A stretch of 5,945 bases of DNA from Deltaproteobacteria bacterium (lineage in GTDB: Bacteria > Desulfobacterota > Syntrophia > Syntrophales > UBA2210). This document shows, piece by piece, positions 1,773 through 5,945 of the stretch. The position numbers and the translations under genes were made by a program. Under the pieces are notes generated by a model that had not been told where the DNA came from, made no database searches, and saw only the letters and a list, made by a program, of their open reading frames with translations. The stretch is from NCBI GenBank assembly GCA_019314085.1, contig JAFCZZ010000341.1, positions 1 to 5,945 of the forward strand, in the 5' to 3' direction. Within the stretch, counting starts at the first letter, position 1. Each line of letters starts with the position of its first letter.

Positions 1773-2999
1773 ATGGCAAAGGATCTGTTGTTGGAGATAG
1801 GAACGGAAGAGATCCCGGCCGCCTTCCTCCCGAAGGCGCTGAAGGATATGGAGCGGATTATCACCGGGGAGCTTTCCGAAAACCGTATCGGCCACGGCCG
1901 GCTGCGGACCATGGGTACACCGAGAAGGCTGCTCCTGTCGATCGAGGATGTGGAAGAGAGACAGGAGGATCAGGTCCTGGAGAAGATGGGGCCTTCAACA
2001 GCCGTGGCCTTCGACGAAGGGGGCAGCCCCACGAAGGCGGCCATCGGATTCGCCCGGGGGCAGGGAGTAGAGGTCTCCGAACTGGAGATCGTGGAAACGC
2101 CCAAGGGAAAACAGATCTGCGCGCGGAAAAAGATCATCGGTGAGGATACCCTCGACATCCTGAAGGACCTCCTGCCGCGATTCATCCTGTCCATCCCCTT
2201 CCGGAAATCGATGCGCTGGATGGGTCTGGGTCTGCGCTTTGCAAGACCGATTCATTGGATACTGGCCATCTTCGGGGGTGAGGTTATCCCCTTTTCGATA
2301 GAGAACATAACCAGCTCAGATACAAGCCGCGGCCACCGGTTCATGGCCCCGGAACCGTTCAAGGTCGAGGGCTTTGAGGACTACCTCAAGAAAACGGAAG
2401 AACGATTCGTCATTGTGGACCCGGACCGAAGGAAAAAGATCATACAGGATGAGGCCAAGGCCGCCGCCGAGAGCGTCTCAGGGGCCGTTCTTGAAAACGA
2501 GGCCCTCCTGGAAGAGGTGAGCTTTCTCATCGAATATCCCTCCGACGTATGCGGAACCTTCGACAGGGAATATCTCGATCTTCCCAAAGATGTCCTGACC
2601 ACCACGATGATGAAACATCAGAAATACTTCCCCGTCGTCGATACGCAGGGAAAACTGCTTCCTCATTTCATCACCGTGAACAATACCCTGTCCCGGGACC
2701 CCTCGGTCGTGGCCCGCGGCAATGAAAAGGTGATCCGGGCCCGGCTGGCCGACGCCCGATTCTTCTTCGATGAAGACCGTAAGACCCCTCTCGAAGAGCA
2801 CCTGGAAAAGCTGAAGAATGTCGTCTTTCACAGCGCTCTTGGTACCTCGTGTGAAAAAGTGGAACGGTTCAGGGAGCTTGCGAAGAATATCTCGACCAAG
2901 ATCGTTTTTTCCTCTCCTGCATCCTCATTGGCAACAGTTGATATGACTGCAACACTTGCCAAGGCGGACCTTGCGAATTTGCCGAACTGCAGGGGGTGA
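1773..2999 (+). CDS. glyS: glycyl-tRNA synthetase beta subunit, N-terminal part of a frame-broken gene
   Basis: The beta subunit supplies tRNA binding and partners the alpha subunit in GlyRS. This ORF starts at ATG 1773, with a purine-rich site AAGAGGAG at 1754-1761, and gives 408 residues against about 690 for the whole family. Recognisable blocks are LLLEIGTEEIPAAFLP near the N-terminus, GTPRRLLLSI (48-57), SRGHRFMAPEPF (185-196), MMKHQKYFPVVD (279-290), and NEKVIRARLADARFFFDEDR (317-336). The match holds to AKADL (396-400), inside the HD-like domain. After L400 the frame reads ANLPNCRG and stops at TGA 2997-2999, while the expected continuation (EFAELQGVMGREYA) is found in another frame from 2975. 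Family members have about six residues between the two blocks and here only two bases remain, so this is a deletion of about 16 nt, not just a slipped base. Confidence 0.88.
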   Translation: MAKDLLLEIGTEEIPAAFLPKALKDMERIITGELSENRIGHGRLRTMGTPRRLLLSIEDVEERQEDQVLEKMGPSTAVAFDEGGSPTKAAIGFARGQGVEVSELEIVETPKGKQICARKKIIGEDTLDILKDLLPRFILSIPFRKSMRWMGLGLRFARPIHWILAIFGGEVIPFSIENITSSDTSRGHRFMAPEPFKVEGFEDYLKKTEERFVIVDPDRRKKIIQDEAKAAAESVSGAVLENEALLEEVSFLIEYPSDVCGTFDREYLDLPKDVLTTTMMKHQKYFPVVDTQGKLLPHFITVNNTLSRDPSVVARGNEKVIRARLADARFFFDEDRKTPLEEHLEKLKNVVFHSALGTSCEKVERFRELAKNISTKIVFSSPASSLATVDMTATLAKADLANLPNCRG

Positions 3000-3001
3000 T
3001 G
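2970..3001 (+). other. frame break and apparent ~16-nt deletion in glyS
   Basis: The codon for L400 ends at 2972 and the next homologous codon, GAA for the E of EFAELQG, starts at 2975. The two bases between (GC) stand where GlyS proteins have about six residues, typically of the form VTxMVx. Shifting the frame alone cannot restore the missing residues. I see no slippery heptamer here that would suggest programmed frameshifting. The stop TGA (2997-2999) overlaps the possible restart codons GTG (2996) and ATG (2999). Confidence 0.8.
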
Positions 3002-3841
3002 GGCAGGGAGTATGCCCTGCTGCAGGGAGTAGAACCCTCTGTCGCAAAGGCGATCTACGAGCACTACCTCCCGACGGCCGCCGGAGGCGAACTCCCGGAA
3101 ACAGACGAAGGTTCCATCGTCAGCATCGCCGACAAGATTGATACAATCGTGGGATTTTTCGGCATAAACCTCGTACCAACAGGCACGGCCGATCCCTTTG
3201 CCCTCAGAAGGCAGGCCCTCGGCATTATCAATATCATTCTGAACAAAAGGTATCCGCTGAATCTGGATGAACTCATCGACATGAGCATCTCAGCCCTCGA
3301 CAAGAAACTGAAGAGGAGCCCGGAAGAGACAAAGGCGGATGTGATCGATTTTTTCAGGGGACGGTTTGAAAATCAGCTGATATCACAGGGGCATCCCTAT
3401 GATGTGGTGGGTGCCGTTCTGGCGCTCGGCATAGCCGATATCGTCCAGTCCATGGGAAAGATAGAGGCCATGGAGGCATTCAAGAAACACCCCGACTTCG
3501 AACCCCTGGCGGTTGCCTTTAAGCGCGTCGTCAATATCCTCAAGGGCTTTGAGGGGGGATCCGTTGACACGTCCATCTTTGACGCCCCTGCCGAGGAGGA
3601 CCTCTACCGTGCATTTACCGACATACGGGAGAGAGCGAATACCTGCATAGACAACGGCAGTTACTCGGAAGCCCTGTCAGAAATGGCAAAACTCCGAAAA
3701 CCGGTCGACACCTTTTTTACTGAAGTTATGGTTATGGCGGAAGATGAGAAGATCCGGTTCAACCGGCTGTCCCTTCTGGAGAAGATGTCTCACCTCTTCC
3801 ACCGGATAGCCGATTTTTCGAAGATCGTAACGGAAGGCTGA
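2996..3841 (+). CDS. glyS: glycyl-tRNA synthetase beta subunit, C-terminal part of a frame-broken gene
   Basis: This frame carries the rest of the beta subunit. The homologous reading resumes at GAA 2975 (EFAELQGV), before any start codon. The first possible starts are GTG 2996 and ATG 2999, giving 281 or 280 residues. Visible family blocks are MGREYALLQG, VAKAIYEHYLP, SIADKIDTIVGFFGI and the strongly conserved PTGTADPFALRRQALGIINI. A C-terminal DALR-type anticodon-binding region follows, ending PVDTFFTEVMVMAEDEKIRFNRLSLLEKM. Both GlyS parts plus the missing six residues total about 694, the normal size. The TGA of the first part overlaps the start (GTGATG), and AGGGGG at 2991-2996 might act as a poor, very close ribosome site. 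Re-initiation is therefore conceivable; a sequence error or true inactivation are the alternatives. The coding quality of this half shows no further decay. Confidence 0.85.
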   Translation: MMGREYALLQGVEPSVAKAIYEHYLPTAAGGELPETDEGSIVSIADKIDTIVGFFGINLVPTGTADPFALRRQALGIINIILNKRYPLNLDELIDMSISALDKKLKRSPEETKADVIDFFRGRFENQLISQGHPYDVVGAVLALGIADIVQSMGKIEAMEAFKKHPDFEPLAVAFKRVVNILKGFEGGSVDTSIFDAPAEEDLYRAFTDIRERANTCIDNGSYSEALSEMAKLRKPVDTFFTEVMVMAEDEKIRFNRLSLLEKMSHLFHRIADFSKIVTEG

Positions 3842-3974: not shown

Positions 3975-4004
3975 TTGACAGCACCCATGATTTATGATTA
4001 TGAG
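3975..4004 (+). promoter_or_regulatory. sigma-70-type promoter for the aromatic leader and aroF-aroB
   Basis: A perfect -35 box TTGACA lies at 3975-3980. Candidate -10 boxes are TATGAG at 3999-4004 (18-base spacer, four of six consensus bases) and GATTAT at 3996-4001 (15-base spacer, four of six). Either would start transcription near 4008-4012, leaving about 20 bases before the leader peptide start, typical of attenuated operons. The exact -10 is uncertain. Confidence 0.6.
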
Positions 4005-4031
4005 CTACATTACTTTTGGAAAGGTGCTTCT

Positions 4032-4118
4032 ATGATGGGCAGAAGTCTGAATTTAACTTATTGGTTTAGCTATTACTATTTTGGCGGATCGGTGTGCCCA
4101 TTGCTTATGAATAGCTAA
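4032..4118 (+). CDS. aromatic-rich leader peptide of the aroF-aroB attenuator
   Basis: This 28-codon ORF starts at ATG 4032 (or the adjacent ATG 4035) and stops at TAA 4116. AAGGTG at 4021-4026 is a well-placed ribosome site (5 or 8 bases). The peptide begins MMGRSLNL and continues with TYWFSYYYF at residues 9-17. Seven of the eight residues 10-17 are aromatic: four Tyr, two Phe and one Trp. The rest of the peptide (GGSVCPLLMNS) has none. Such a cluster is the hallmark of a sensor peptide in transcription attenuation, as in the trp, phe and his operons of enteric bacteria. The codons are translated, not the product used: scarcity of charged aromatic tRNAs stalls the ribosome there. It lies between a good promoter and tandem terminator-like hairpins, ahead of the gene for the first enzyme of aromatic synthesis. 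The role is inferred from these features; no homologous leader was searched for. Confidence 0.85.
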   Translation: MMGRSLNLTYWFSYYYFGGSVCPLLMNS

Positions 4119-4140
4119 CTTCAGAACATAAAGAGCTAAG

Positions 4141-4179
4141 CCATGGGTAGACCGAAAGCGTCTACACCGTGGTTTTTTT
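4141..4179 (+). terminator. terminator-like hairpin A of the attenuator
   Basis: CCATGG-GTAGAC at 4141-4152 pairs with GTCTAC-A-CCGTGG at 4160-4172. This gives twelve pairs with one G-U and one bulged A, a seven-base loop, and seven T immediately after (4173-4179). The shape is that of an intrinsic terminator. Its 5' arm is also complementary to the end of the leader ORF, so its formation should depend on ribosome position. Confidence 0.7.
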
Positions 4180-4185
4180 GTTTAT

Positions 4186-4228
4186 AAGGCCATGGTGAAA
4201 TCAGTTTCACCATGGCCTTTTTATTTTT
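4186..4228 (+). terminator. strong intrinsic terminator B just before aroF
   Basis: AAGGCCATGGTGAAA at 4186-4200 and its exact reverse complement at 4205-4219 form a perfect 15-pair stem closed by the four-base loop TCAG. The T-rich tract runs TTTTT-A-TTTTT from 4218 to 4228, so its first two T belong to the stem. It ends only three bases before the aroF ribosome site. As a constitutive terminator it would block aroF transcription from upstream, so it must be read through conditionally, which supports attenuation. Confidence 0.9.
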
Positions 4229-4231
4229 GAC

Positions 4232-4246: not shown

Positions 4247-5275
4247 GTGATCATCGTAATGAAGAGGAACGCAACAGAGGCACAGATTAAAAATGTAATC
4301 GACTGGATTGAGTCGGTCGGTTACACGACCCATCCCTCTCACGGGGTTGAACGGACCATTATAGGGGCCGTGGGAGACAACCGCGGAAAGGAGAATCTCA
4401 AATTTGCCGAATCCCTTTCGGGGGTTGAAAAAACGATCCCTATTCTTAAACCGTACAAACTGGCCAGCCGCGAGGCACGACAGGGGAAGACCATCATACG
4501 GGTCGGCAATCTGGAGATCGGGGGCCCAAGGTTTGTCGTTATGGCGGGTCCCTGTTCGATTGAAAGTCCGGAGCAGATGATGGAAAGCGCCTTCATCGCC
4601 AAGAAGGGGGGAGCCGACATCATCAGGGGCGGGGCCTTCAAGCCGAGAACATCGCCTTACAGTTTCCAGGGCATGGAAGAAGAGGGCCTGAAACTCATCA
4701 GAAAAGCCGGCGACAAGGCGGGCCTGCCCGTCATCACGGAGGTGCTCAATACCACCGATGTCGACCTGATTGAAGAATACGTCGATATCCTCCAGATAGG
4801 GGCACGAAACGTCCAGAACTTTGCCCTCCTGAAAAAGGTGGGGAAGGCGAAAAAACCCGTGCTTCTCAAGCGGGGAATGATGACGACGATCGAAGAGTTT
4901 CTCATGTCGGCGGAATATATCCTCTCGTCGGGAAATGATGACGTCATCCTGTGCGAGCGGGGGATCCGCACCTTTGAGACGGCAACCCGCAACACCCTCG
5001 ATATCAGCGCCGTCCCCGTCCTAAAGGAACTGTCGCACCTGCCGGTGATCATCGACCCCAGCCACGCGGCTGGCAACTGGAAGTATGTCCTTCCCCTGAC
5101 GAGAGCGGCGCTCGCGGTGGGAGCGGATGGTGTCATGATCGAGGTTCATCCCGAGCCGGGGAAGGCCGTCTCGGACGGGATTCAGTCCCTGAAACCGGAA
5201 AAATTCTACGGGTTAATGGAAGAGATACGAAACCTCGAAAGTCTCATCCGAAAGGAGGCGAAGGTGTCCGCATGA
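4247..5275 (+). CDS. aroF: 3-deoxy-7-phosphoheptulonate (DAHP) synthase, type I beta, with N-terminal regulatory domain
   Basis: The enzyme condenses phosphoenolpyruvate and erythrose 4-phosphate to DAHP, the first step of the shikimate pathway. The 342 residues match the Thermotoga maritima type in length and layout. An N-terminal ferredoxin-like domain (about 1-70, ending in the family motif ILKPYKLASRE) is followed by a TIM barrel. Blocks include AGPCSIES (100-107), RGGAFKPRTSPYSFQG (127-142), QIGARNVQNF (183-192), LLKRGM (206-211), CERGIRTFE (236-244) and DPSHAAG (270-276). By family alignment the metal ligands are C103, H273, E299 and D310, all present. In this subfamily the N-terminal domain mediates feedback inhibition by Tyr or Phe, so similar control is likely here. 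A terminator and an aromatic-rich leader lie upstream. Its stop overlaps the aroB start, so the two are translationally linked. Confidence 0.96.
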   Translation: MIIVMKRNATEAQIKNVIDWIESVGYTTHPSHGVERTIIGAVGDNRGKENLKFAESLSGVEKTIPILKPYKLASREARQGKTIIRVGNLEIGGPRFVVMAGPCSIESPEQMMESAFIAKKGGADIIRGGAFKPRTSPYSFQGMEEEGLKLIRKAGDKAGLPVITEVLNTTDVDLIEEYVDILQIGARNVQNFALLKKVGKAKKPVLLKRGMMTTIEEFLMSAEYILSSGNDDVILCERGIRTFETATRNTLDISAVPVLKELSHLPVIIDPSHAAGNWKYVLPLTRAALAVGADGVMIEVHPEPGKAVSDGIQSLKPEKFYGLMEEIRNLESLIRKEAKVSA

Positions 5276-5945
5276 AAAGGATCAAGGTCAATCTCGACAA
5301 GCAATCTTCCCTCTCTCACGAGATTTGCATCGGCCATAACATCCTTGACCGCATAGGGCTTGTCATTGCGAAGGCAAACATCGCCCATCGATATACGGTC
5401 ATCACCGACTCCAACGTATCCGCCCTTTACGGGGAAGAGATTCTCGGCGTATTGAAGGGGGTGGGTGTGAAAGCCGATCTGATTGAGTTCCCGGCAGGAG
5501 AGGCGTCTAAGAATATGGAGACGGTCCTCACCATTGTAAAGGAGCTGATCAATCGCGGTGTTGACAGAAGTTCCGCCCTGATTGCGCTCGGAGGCGGGGT
5601 CACCGGCGATATAACCGGTTTTATCGCATCCATATACATGAGGTCTATGCCCTATATCCAGGTACCAACGACCCTTATGGCCCAGGTAGACAGCAGCATC
5701 GGCGGCAAGACGGGGATCGATCTCCCGGAGGGGAAAAACCTGCTGGGGGCATTTTTCCAGCCGCAGGCTATATTCACAGATCTCCAGTTTCTGAGCACCC
5801 TCCCGGACGATGAATTTATCAGCGGCCTGTCGGAGGTCGTAAAGTACGGGATCATTGATGATGTGGATCTCTTCACCCTCCTGGAGGGGAAGGCCGACGC
5901 CATTCGGAACCGTGACCCGGATATATTGCAGGCGATTGTGGAGCG
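5272..5945 (+). CDS. aroB: 3-dehydroquinate synthase, N-terminal 224 residues (cut by window end)
   Basis: AroB converts DAHP to 3-dehydroquinate, the second shikimate step, using NAD+ and a divalent metal. The reading frame opens at ATG 5272, overlapping the aroF stop (ATGA), with GGAGG at 5254-5258 and the closer AAGGTG at 5261-5266 upstream. It is open to the window edge, which cuts it after 224 codons of the usual 350 or so. Visible motifs are FPAGEASKNMETV (73-85), the glycine-rich NAD+ loop GGGVTGD (107-113), QVPTTLMAQVDSSIGGKTG (130-148), PEGKN (152-156) and SEVVKYG (187-193). By alignment with the Aspergillus enzyme, D140, K146, K155, E188 (metal ligand) and K191 match the known active-site residues at a constant offset of six. 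The two metal-binding histidines would lie past the window end. Overlap with aroF implies coupled translation and shared attenuation. Confidence 0.96.
   Translation, partial: MKRIKVNLDKQSSLSHEICIGHNILDRIGLVIAKANIAHRYTVITDSNVSALYGEEILGVLKGVGVKADLIEFPAGEASKNMETVLTIVKELINRGVDRSSALIALGGGVTGDITGFIASIYMRSMPYIQVPTTLMAQVDSSIGGKTGIDLPEGKNLLGAFFQPQAIFTDLQFLSTLPDDEFISGLSEVVKYGIIDDVDLFTLLEGKADAIRNRDPDILQAIVE

Follow-up and report, generated by a model that had tools for sequence, protein, structure and literature searches.

The trpL and pheL leaders of Escherichia coli are each devoted to one amino acid, use one terminator and control end-product branches. The attenuator of the enteric his operon is laid out in six segments, in which the AB, CD and EF (terminator) pairings alternate with the BC and DE antiterminator pairings, and in such a his-type relay the last hairpin alone is a terminator. 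Neshat et al. reportedly described an aroR-aroF leader in Corynebacterium glutamicum in 2014. According to the accessible text of PMC11802643, an aromatic-codon leader (Phe-Tyr-Phe only) lies upstream of the DAHP synthase gene of C. glutamicum, stalling on it raises transcription under Phe limitation, and it is reported to be unresponsive to Tyr; a C. glutamicum aroF leader is also reported in the available part of PMC4046766, and the accessible portions of these two sources mention no tandem terminator. The Acholeplasma uORFC-13-1 motif places a uORF upstream of aroF with one or more Phe codons next to a terminator; the accessible text of PMC8632094 counts 24 representatives from Acholeplasma and environmental DNA, names Phe alone and describes no Trp/Tyr cluster. 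For Desulfovibrio vulgaris, Song et al. listed in 2005 a predicted attenuator ahead of the aroA'-aroB' supraoperon, taken from Merino's database (PMC1173090 Table 7); the available portion of their paper gives neither leader peptide nor mechanism. The rimP-leader of Gammaproteobacteria combines two tandem terminators with a potential antiterminator, and the accessible part of PMC2965389 describes no amino-acid leader for it.

We have analysed a window of 5,945 nucleotides, by which we mean the whole stretch of deltaproteobacterial DNA under study, in which a leader ORF sits between glyS and aroF-aroB. The element is very probably a ribosome-mediated transcription attenuator of the aroF-aroB operon that senses aromatics. 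Like the E. coli trpL and pheL leaders it joins a leader peptide to a 1:2, 2:3, 3:4 logic; unlike them it would control the common first step, with several aromatics and two terminators. Its proposed full scheme, 1:2/3:4/5:6 against 2:3/4:5, would be like that of the enteric his operon, from which it differs in that the middle hairpin (3:4) is itself a predicted terminator with a U-run (72 of 73 aligned rows), that two terminators stand in series and that the sensor is aromatic. As far as the accessible sources go, it shares with C. glutamicum, a member of another phylum, the aromatic-codon leader peptide ahead of a DAHP synthase gene, with Acholeplasma the uORF and terminator upstream of aroF, and with D. 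vulgaris, likewise a deltaproteobacterium, a computed attenuator before genes of the ADH synthase route; the rimP-leader concerns a different gene and lineage. The sequence-only reading, which had recognised the leader, knew of no description of it in this type of organism. Our literature search, with most subscription journals outside it, likewise found none for this leader in Deltaproteobacteria or Desulfobacterota, nor any account of a three-frame core or of tandem-terminator leader attenuators for Desulfobacterota. DAHP synthase leader control is, however, known in C. glutamicum and proposed in Acholeplasma, and the idea of an aroF leader is therefore not unprecedented. The attenuator would amount to a concrete, testable control of the step at which aromatic synthesis begins in a large group of anaerobes, most of them uncultured.

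A conserved aromatic leader upstream of aroF

Translation of the leader ORF gives MMGRSLNLTYWFSYYYFGGSVCPLLMNS followed by a stop, 28 codons in which seven of the eight at positions 10-17 are aromatic and codon 13 is Ser, in agreement with the earlier claim. When the 405-base intergenic stretch was subjected to dinucleotide shuffling, an ORF with at least seven aromatics per eight codons appeared in 2 of 5000 shuffles. The good ribosome site that had been claimed for the leader proved plausible. A consensus promoter scan of the window did not list the TTGACA/TATGAG site, which was found by reading the sequence. The features of the locus are collected in Table 1.

Table 1 Features of the leader region and the genes downstream of it (window positions)
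Feature	Positions	Strand	Basis
Probable promoter: TTGACA 3975-3980, weak -10 TATGAG 3999-4004, 18-base spacer	3975..4004	+	sequence reading
Leader ribosome-binding site GGAAAGGTG, plausible	4018..4026	+	sequence reading
Leader peptide ORF MMGRSLNLTYWFSYYYFGGSVCPLLMNS	4032..4118	+	translation, conservation; start may be 4035
Strand 1, covers second ATG; can pair with 4095-4102 if leader untranslated	4034..4041	+	fold
Sensor codons 10-17, Y W F S Y Y Y F	4059..4082	+	translation
Strand 2, antiterminator strand over leader SVCPLL codons	4089..4107	+	pairs with 4137-4155, 17 pairs
Strand 3, contains 5' arm of T1	4137..4155	+	pairing, folding
Predicted terminator T1: stem 4141-4152 / 4160-4172, then U7 4173-4179	4141..4179	+	covariation, 73 aroF rows and 91 multi-operon rows
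Candidate relay 4:5: T1 3' arm 4165-4172 with T2 5' arm 4190-4197	4165..4197	+	perfect 8 pairs, 12 with U:A/U:G extension
Predicted terminator T2: stem 4186-4200 / 4205-4219, then U-rich tail	4186..4229	+	conservation, covariation
aroF, 3-deoxy-7-phosphoheptulonate synthase, PRK08673/TIGR01361 type	4247..5275	+	NCBIfam
aroB, 3-dehydroquinate synthase, cut by window end	5272..5945	+	NCBIfam TIGR01357, partial match, below whole-protein cut-off

Relatives were taken from one protein scan of genome contigs as the best 80 of 320 (aroF identity 70-93%), with record titles mostly of Syntrophales, Syntrophaceae or Deltaproteobacteria MAGs; two without the aroF start (L065, L078) were dropped, leaving 78 aroF loci. 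The alignment of regions upstream of aroF homologues that the sequence-only reading had proposed bears the leader out: an intact aromatic-rich leader precedes aroF in 72 of these 78 loci, in each case as an aromatic cluster followed by [VD]C[PLS], and these 72 together with the window form the 73-row aroF alignment (A1). Two contigs (L054, L063) begin inside the leader, that of L049 is masked by N, and L055 keeps the aromatic stretch without the usual start codon. A leader ORF was sought upstream of aroF in L022 and L053 and was present in neither; L022 has retained a T1-like hairpin directly 3' of a TTGACA promoter, and L053 has neither leader nor T1-like hairpin. All 72 rows with enough sequence (window included) carry TTGAC in the 95 nt upstream of the leader, and only 36 of them have a -10 match as well. 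Because some relatives, L002 and L004 for example, have the second ATG only, the leader may start at position 4035.

Trp, Tyr and Phe occur together in 69 of the 73 leaders (window included). The mix of three aromatics, which had been taken to fit control of the common first step, therefore holds for most of the set and fails in four leaders that lack Trp (L010, L023, L047 and L075). The 14 residues preceding VC hold at least six aromatics in 73 of 73 rows, and Y, F and W swap for one another among the aroF leaders while the aromatic class of the cluster is maintained. This maintenance, together with the position of the leader ahead of alternative terminator/antiterminator pairings, supports the earlier proposal that the leader may place aroF under aromatic control. 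At the C-terminus, VCPxLRR, the VCP is conserved and the LRR often so. In 33 of 73 aroF rows, the window not among them, an SD-like AGGAGG (two AGG Arg codons) lies just before the leader stop; such leader tails might hold the ribosome over strand 2.

The flanking genes call for two remarks. In the window, glyS is broken into two reading frames (1773-2999 and 2996-3841), and its alignment to the relative L001 shows 16 gap positions at 2960-3000, from which the window glyS has either a frameshifting deletion or an assembly fault. On the longer contig L033, aroF is followed by aroB and then by genes that look pheA-like and aroD-like when their translations are read by eye.

Predicted terminators and alternative pairings

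Two hairpins, T1 and T2, are predicted intrinsic terminators between the leader and aroF. The sequence-only reading was silent on them. Across the 73 aroF rows, T1 (3:4) has 89.1% of its cells paired and seven pairs with two-sided changes; the corresponding values for T2 (5:6) are 96.5% and six, with 70 two-sided cells. The percentage paired, the two-sided cells and the covariation score were matched in 0 of 500 shuffles for either hairpin, and for T2 the number of two-sided pairs was reached in 10 of 500 and the number of pair types in 25 of 500; kinship can inflate such shuffle tests, as it can swap tests. Within the eight columns after the stem, at least five T are found in 72 of 73 rows for T1 and 70 of 73 for T2. 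Both hairpins covary again across operons, in 91 sense-strand matches to a covariance model (R1) built from the 73-row aroF alignment.

The mutually exclusive antiterminator, 2:3, uses the strand that a ribosome would cover near the leader stop. In the window its 17-pair duplex reaches -25.7 kcal/mol against -21.1 for T1, and in the 73 aroF rows 93.3% of its cells are paired against 30-39% when slid. Covariation of 2:3 was sought within these 73 rows and not found: two-sided changes are absent, and the values are no higher than in shuffles. Across operons (91 rows) the native 2:3 pairing averages -25.4 kcal/mol, swaps across classes -19.4 and swaps within a class -22.4; the native pairing beats the cross-class mean in 84 of 91 rows, comparisons whose Wilcoxon p values ignore relatedness. 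A strand-2 core, GG[TC][CT]TG[CT]C, is present in 55 of the 91 multi-operon rows and absent from 36, and relative to the leader it is read in all three frames, giving VCP, GLP or RSA/FVR-type residues. Third codon positions in or beside strand 2 (alignment columns 6, 12 and 18) are invariant in 73 of 73 aroF rows; columns 16 and 17, which are first and second codon positions, vary, and so do the third positions at columns 9 and 15. Since the core is read in three frames and three third positions are invariant in aroF, the constraint on strand 2 appears to act largely at the RNA level. The candidate 1:2 pairing around the start codon is weakly supported: its duplex amounts to -13.8 kcal/mol in the window, and it ranks among the best 5 of 100 shuffles in only 27 of 73 rows.

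Pairing between the 3' arm of T1 and the 5' arm of T2 (4:5) was examined in the 91-row multi-operon alignment, which is fitted to the T1/T2 structure and not to 4:5. There it is 85.5% paired, with seven two-sided pairs and 46 two-sided cells, values each reached in 0 of 500 shuffles; the number of pair types is reached in 49 of 500, and 4:5 slid by -1 is still 48.9% paired, with 35 two-sided cells against 46. Covariation of 4:5 within the 73 aroF rows was sought and none was found. Over 100 rows, the T1 3' arm pairs with its own T2 5' arm at -17.3 kcal/mol, against -15.4 with other classes and -16.4 within class; for aroF, for ilvB and for the mixed 'other' class the native pairing is on average no better than cross-class swaps, and here too the Wilcoxon p values leave relatedness out of account. 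With the 5' arms of 24 terminators that a script picked out in 400 kb of the genomes concerned, not all of them surely real, T1 3' arms pair at -8.4 kcal/mol, and the own-T2 pairing outdoes at least 95% of these 24 in 90 of 100 attenuators. A common terminator style as the source of the likeness between T1 and T2 was rejected on the much poorer pairing of these terminators with T1 and on the lack of any R1 match at E <=1 in those 400 kb. Because 4:5 covaries across operons, though not within aroF, it suggests a relay of the his-operon type that could also disarm T2. In L252, L253, L181 and L186 the first hairpin has no U-run and the 4:5 complementarity is kept, which makes them natural examples in which the leader could govern the second terminator through the relay alone.

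Folding was evaluated as equilibrium values with an assumed ribosome edge, the stalled state being RNA from 4086 and the stop state RNA from 4128. In the window, stalled RNA to 4179 gives P(2:3)=0.80 and P(T1)=0.11; by 4190 T1 is back at 0.97, its U-run having already been transcribed. At 4197-4211, 2:3 (0.91) coexists with 4:5 (1.00), and at 4217 or 4228, with strand 6 complete, T2 wins at 0.95. With strand 2 covered by a ribosome at the stop, P(T1)=1.0 and 4:5 is absent; with no ribosome, T1 stands at 0.90-1.00 for RNA to 4172-4190, and 2:3 and 4:5 reappear at 4197-4205. In the stop state T1 lies above 0.5 in all 73 rows, and stalling brings it under 0.5 in only 33 of them; 4:5 with strand 6 unmade exceeds 0.5 in 59 of 73 when stalled and in 0 of 73 in the stop state. 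At full length in the stalled state the means over the 73 rows are 0.90 for T2 and 0.06 for 4:5. As T2 thus wins at equilibrium even when the ribosome is stalled, any disarming of T2 must be kinetic.

The course of events that we infer, from translation of the leader and stalling to the response to starvation and what becomes of T2 when the operon is ON, would run as follows. Under a shortage of charged tRNA-Tyr, -Phe or -Trp, the ribosome would stall at the sensor codons and leave strand 2 free to pair with strand 3, so that T1 would be blocked; the freed T1 3' arm could then pair with the T2 5' arm and disarm T2 too, and with both terminators disarmed transcription would continue into aroF. 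When aromatics are plentiful, the ribosome would reach the stop at 4118 and cover strand 2, and T1 and T2 would both form. Were the leader untranslated, strand 1 near the start codon could take strand 2, and T1 would again be able to form.

Competing explanations

The main rival to the relay is a single T1 switch of the classic trp type, in which T2, outside ribosome control, serves as a fail-safe, as a partial terminator or as a stabilising 5' hairpin. Such a switch would account for T2 being thermodynamically favoured at the end in both states, for the missing 4:5 covariation within the aroF set and for native 4:5 pairings no better than cross-class ones in the aroF, ilvB and 'other' classes, and single-terminator versions do exist, in 8 of 16 leader-bearing ADH synthase genes. 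It sits poorly with the covariation of 4:5 across operons and with the gap between own-T2 pairing and pairing with script-found terminators, and an uncontrolled T2, if fully efficient, would silence the operon. Moreover, as the first hairpin of L252 and L253 has no U-run, the leader there could act only through the second terminator, via the relay. On balance we regard the single T1 switch as unlikely, yet worth keeping in mind.

The remaining alternatives replace ribosome-mediated attenuation altogether. A nascent peptide arrested by the C-terminal VCPxLRR, stalling the ribosome on free aromatic in the manner of TnaC, would explain why VCP, and often LRR, is conserved in aroF leaders; it is disfavoured and very improbable, given that VCP is only one reading of these strand-2 bases, which in related leaders encode GLP or RSA/FVR-type residues, and that three third positions in aroF are invariant. 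A metabolite riboswitch is a still poorer candidate. The Rfam trpB motif RF04312 gives a match over both hairpins at 29.8 bits against a gathering cut-off of 59, no listed Rfam match reaches its cut-off, and a conserved coding leader explains the data; the accessible text of PMC11109978 reports the trpB motif from Firmicutes and Fusobacteria. The Rfam leaders for Trp (RF00513), His (RF00514), Leu (RF00512) and Thr (RF00506) were absent among the five matches at E <=5. Finally, a chance ORF before two ordinary tandem terminators, with no regulation, draws on the aromatic density having been reached in a few shuffles and on data that consist of sequence throughout. This reading, to which we attach almost no weight, was rejected on the conservation of the leader in 72 of 78 loci, and matching runs precede matching genes across the phylum. 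Ribosome-mediated attenuation remains our preferred reading of the locus.

Occurrence before other genes

All eight genomes on which the R1 model was tried gave a match, each of them with secondary ones besides, and at E <=1e-4 the model matched 167 of 395 Desulfobacterota genomes; 400 kb taken from elsewhere in the same genomes gave no match at E <=1. From a longer list, 106 further loci were fetched (19 of 24 secondary matches, 27 from the best phylum matches and 60 more), the proteins downstream of them were grouped into clusters by blastp, and NCBIfam supplied names for ten representatives. The downstream genes comprise TIGR01361 DAHP synthase (24 loci by clustering, four of these behind Trp-only leaders, and four more by leader and position, where the script had picked another frame), ADH synthase TIGR01949 (23 loci), trpE (13), an amino-acid-type binding protein (11, on a match of 51 bits, far below cut-off), TrpB-like PRK12391 (8), AroFGH-type DAHP synthase TIGR00034 (6), ilvB (6), and a leuA cluster, trpD and PaaK with two loci each; the trpE, ilvB and PaaK queries were 300-residue fragments and scored under whole-protein cut-offs. 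Five of the 106 loci fall outside the named clusters, and one of these, L106, looks false.

Leader runs fit the gene where they are seen. WWWW-type runs precede trpE and VVVV-type runs ilvB, mixed F/Y/W leaders precede all three first-step enzymes, and F or Y runs precede the binding protein. In the trpB-like cluster Trp runs are visible, yet the best ORF of the script differed in L103, L155 and L190. The leuA representative, L104, has an LLL leader and one hairpin; L189 of the same cluster has two hairpins and no clear Leu run. Both hairpins have at least seven pairs in 94 of 100 multi-operon rows, the failing ones being L122, L128, L182, L096, L104 and L107.

We tentatively propose, with slightly more doubt than belief, that these loci share an interchangeable Desulfobacterota attenuator module, consisting of the strand-2 core GGTCTGCC, T1, T2 and the relay 4:5. 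The module would be reused before different aromatic first-step enzymes and before further amino-acid genes, its leader recoded each time and its core readable in any of three frames, which would make these phylum-wide tandem-terminator switches with a his-type relay. The same kind of predicted control stands before two DAHP synthase types and before a different enzyme family, ADH synthase, that does the analogous step. A tandem-terminator relay is a compact design that could shut an operon off more tightly than a single terminator, and the reading of one RNA core in three frames suggests a way in which an attenuator can be re-coded to serve a different amino acid. The covariance model also helps to mark which operons in these genomes may answer to which amino acid.

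Selection by R1 favours loci with two hairpins, so loci were also sampled by protein family, each sample being of best-scoring loci and not random. The trpE sample, drawn from the order, held 30 loci of 60 genomes, two of them with short upstream DNA (L206, 260 bases; L213, 177 bases). A Trp leader was present in 27 of the 28 trpE loci with enough upstream DNA, and two hairpins in 26 of these 27 (16 called by script, the other 10 by reading); in L197 and in L200 one U-run is weak, and L214 has one hairpin. For ADH synthase, sampled over the phylum as 23 of 25 matches over cut-off with one per genome, an aromatic leader was found in 16 of 23 loci (17 flagged, L266 being judged spurious), eight of the 16 having two hairpins by reading; L252 and L253, whose first hairpin lacks a U-run, belong to this sample. 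Among the best-scoring 30 phylum loci of DAHP synthase, 13 had a leader (14 flagged, L327 being judged spurious), and L331 showed two hairpins with its leader unflagged. None of the best-scoring 30 phylum loci of ilvB had a Val leader (L291 was flagged and judged spurious), which indicates that the Val version is restricted. Universality of the attenuator before these genes was accordingly rejected, as far from every copy carries a leader.

Several of the genes so preceded deserve mention in their own right. A DAHP synthase paralogue in L147, L161, L165 and L169 follows Trp-only leaders such as WCWWWAW, which suggests a Trp-specific isozyme. Phe- or Tyr-run leaders stand before ABC-transporter-type binding proteins in L090, L093, L098, L107 (where the second hairpin is degenerate), L164, L167, L168, L170, L171, L172 and L178, and these proteins may bind Phe or Tyr instead of branched-chain amino acids. 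Attenuator-like matches also precede PaaK-type (phenylacetate-CoA ligase) genes in L188 and L194, the leader of the latter being MSGIFFFFFYFTRSAREMAT.
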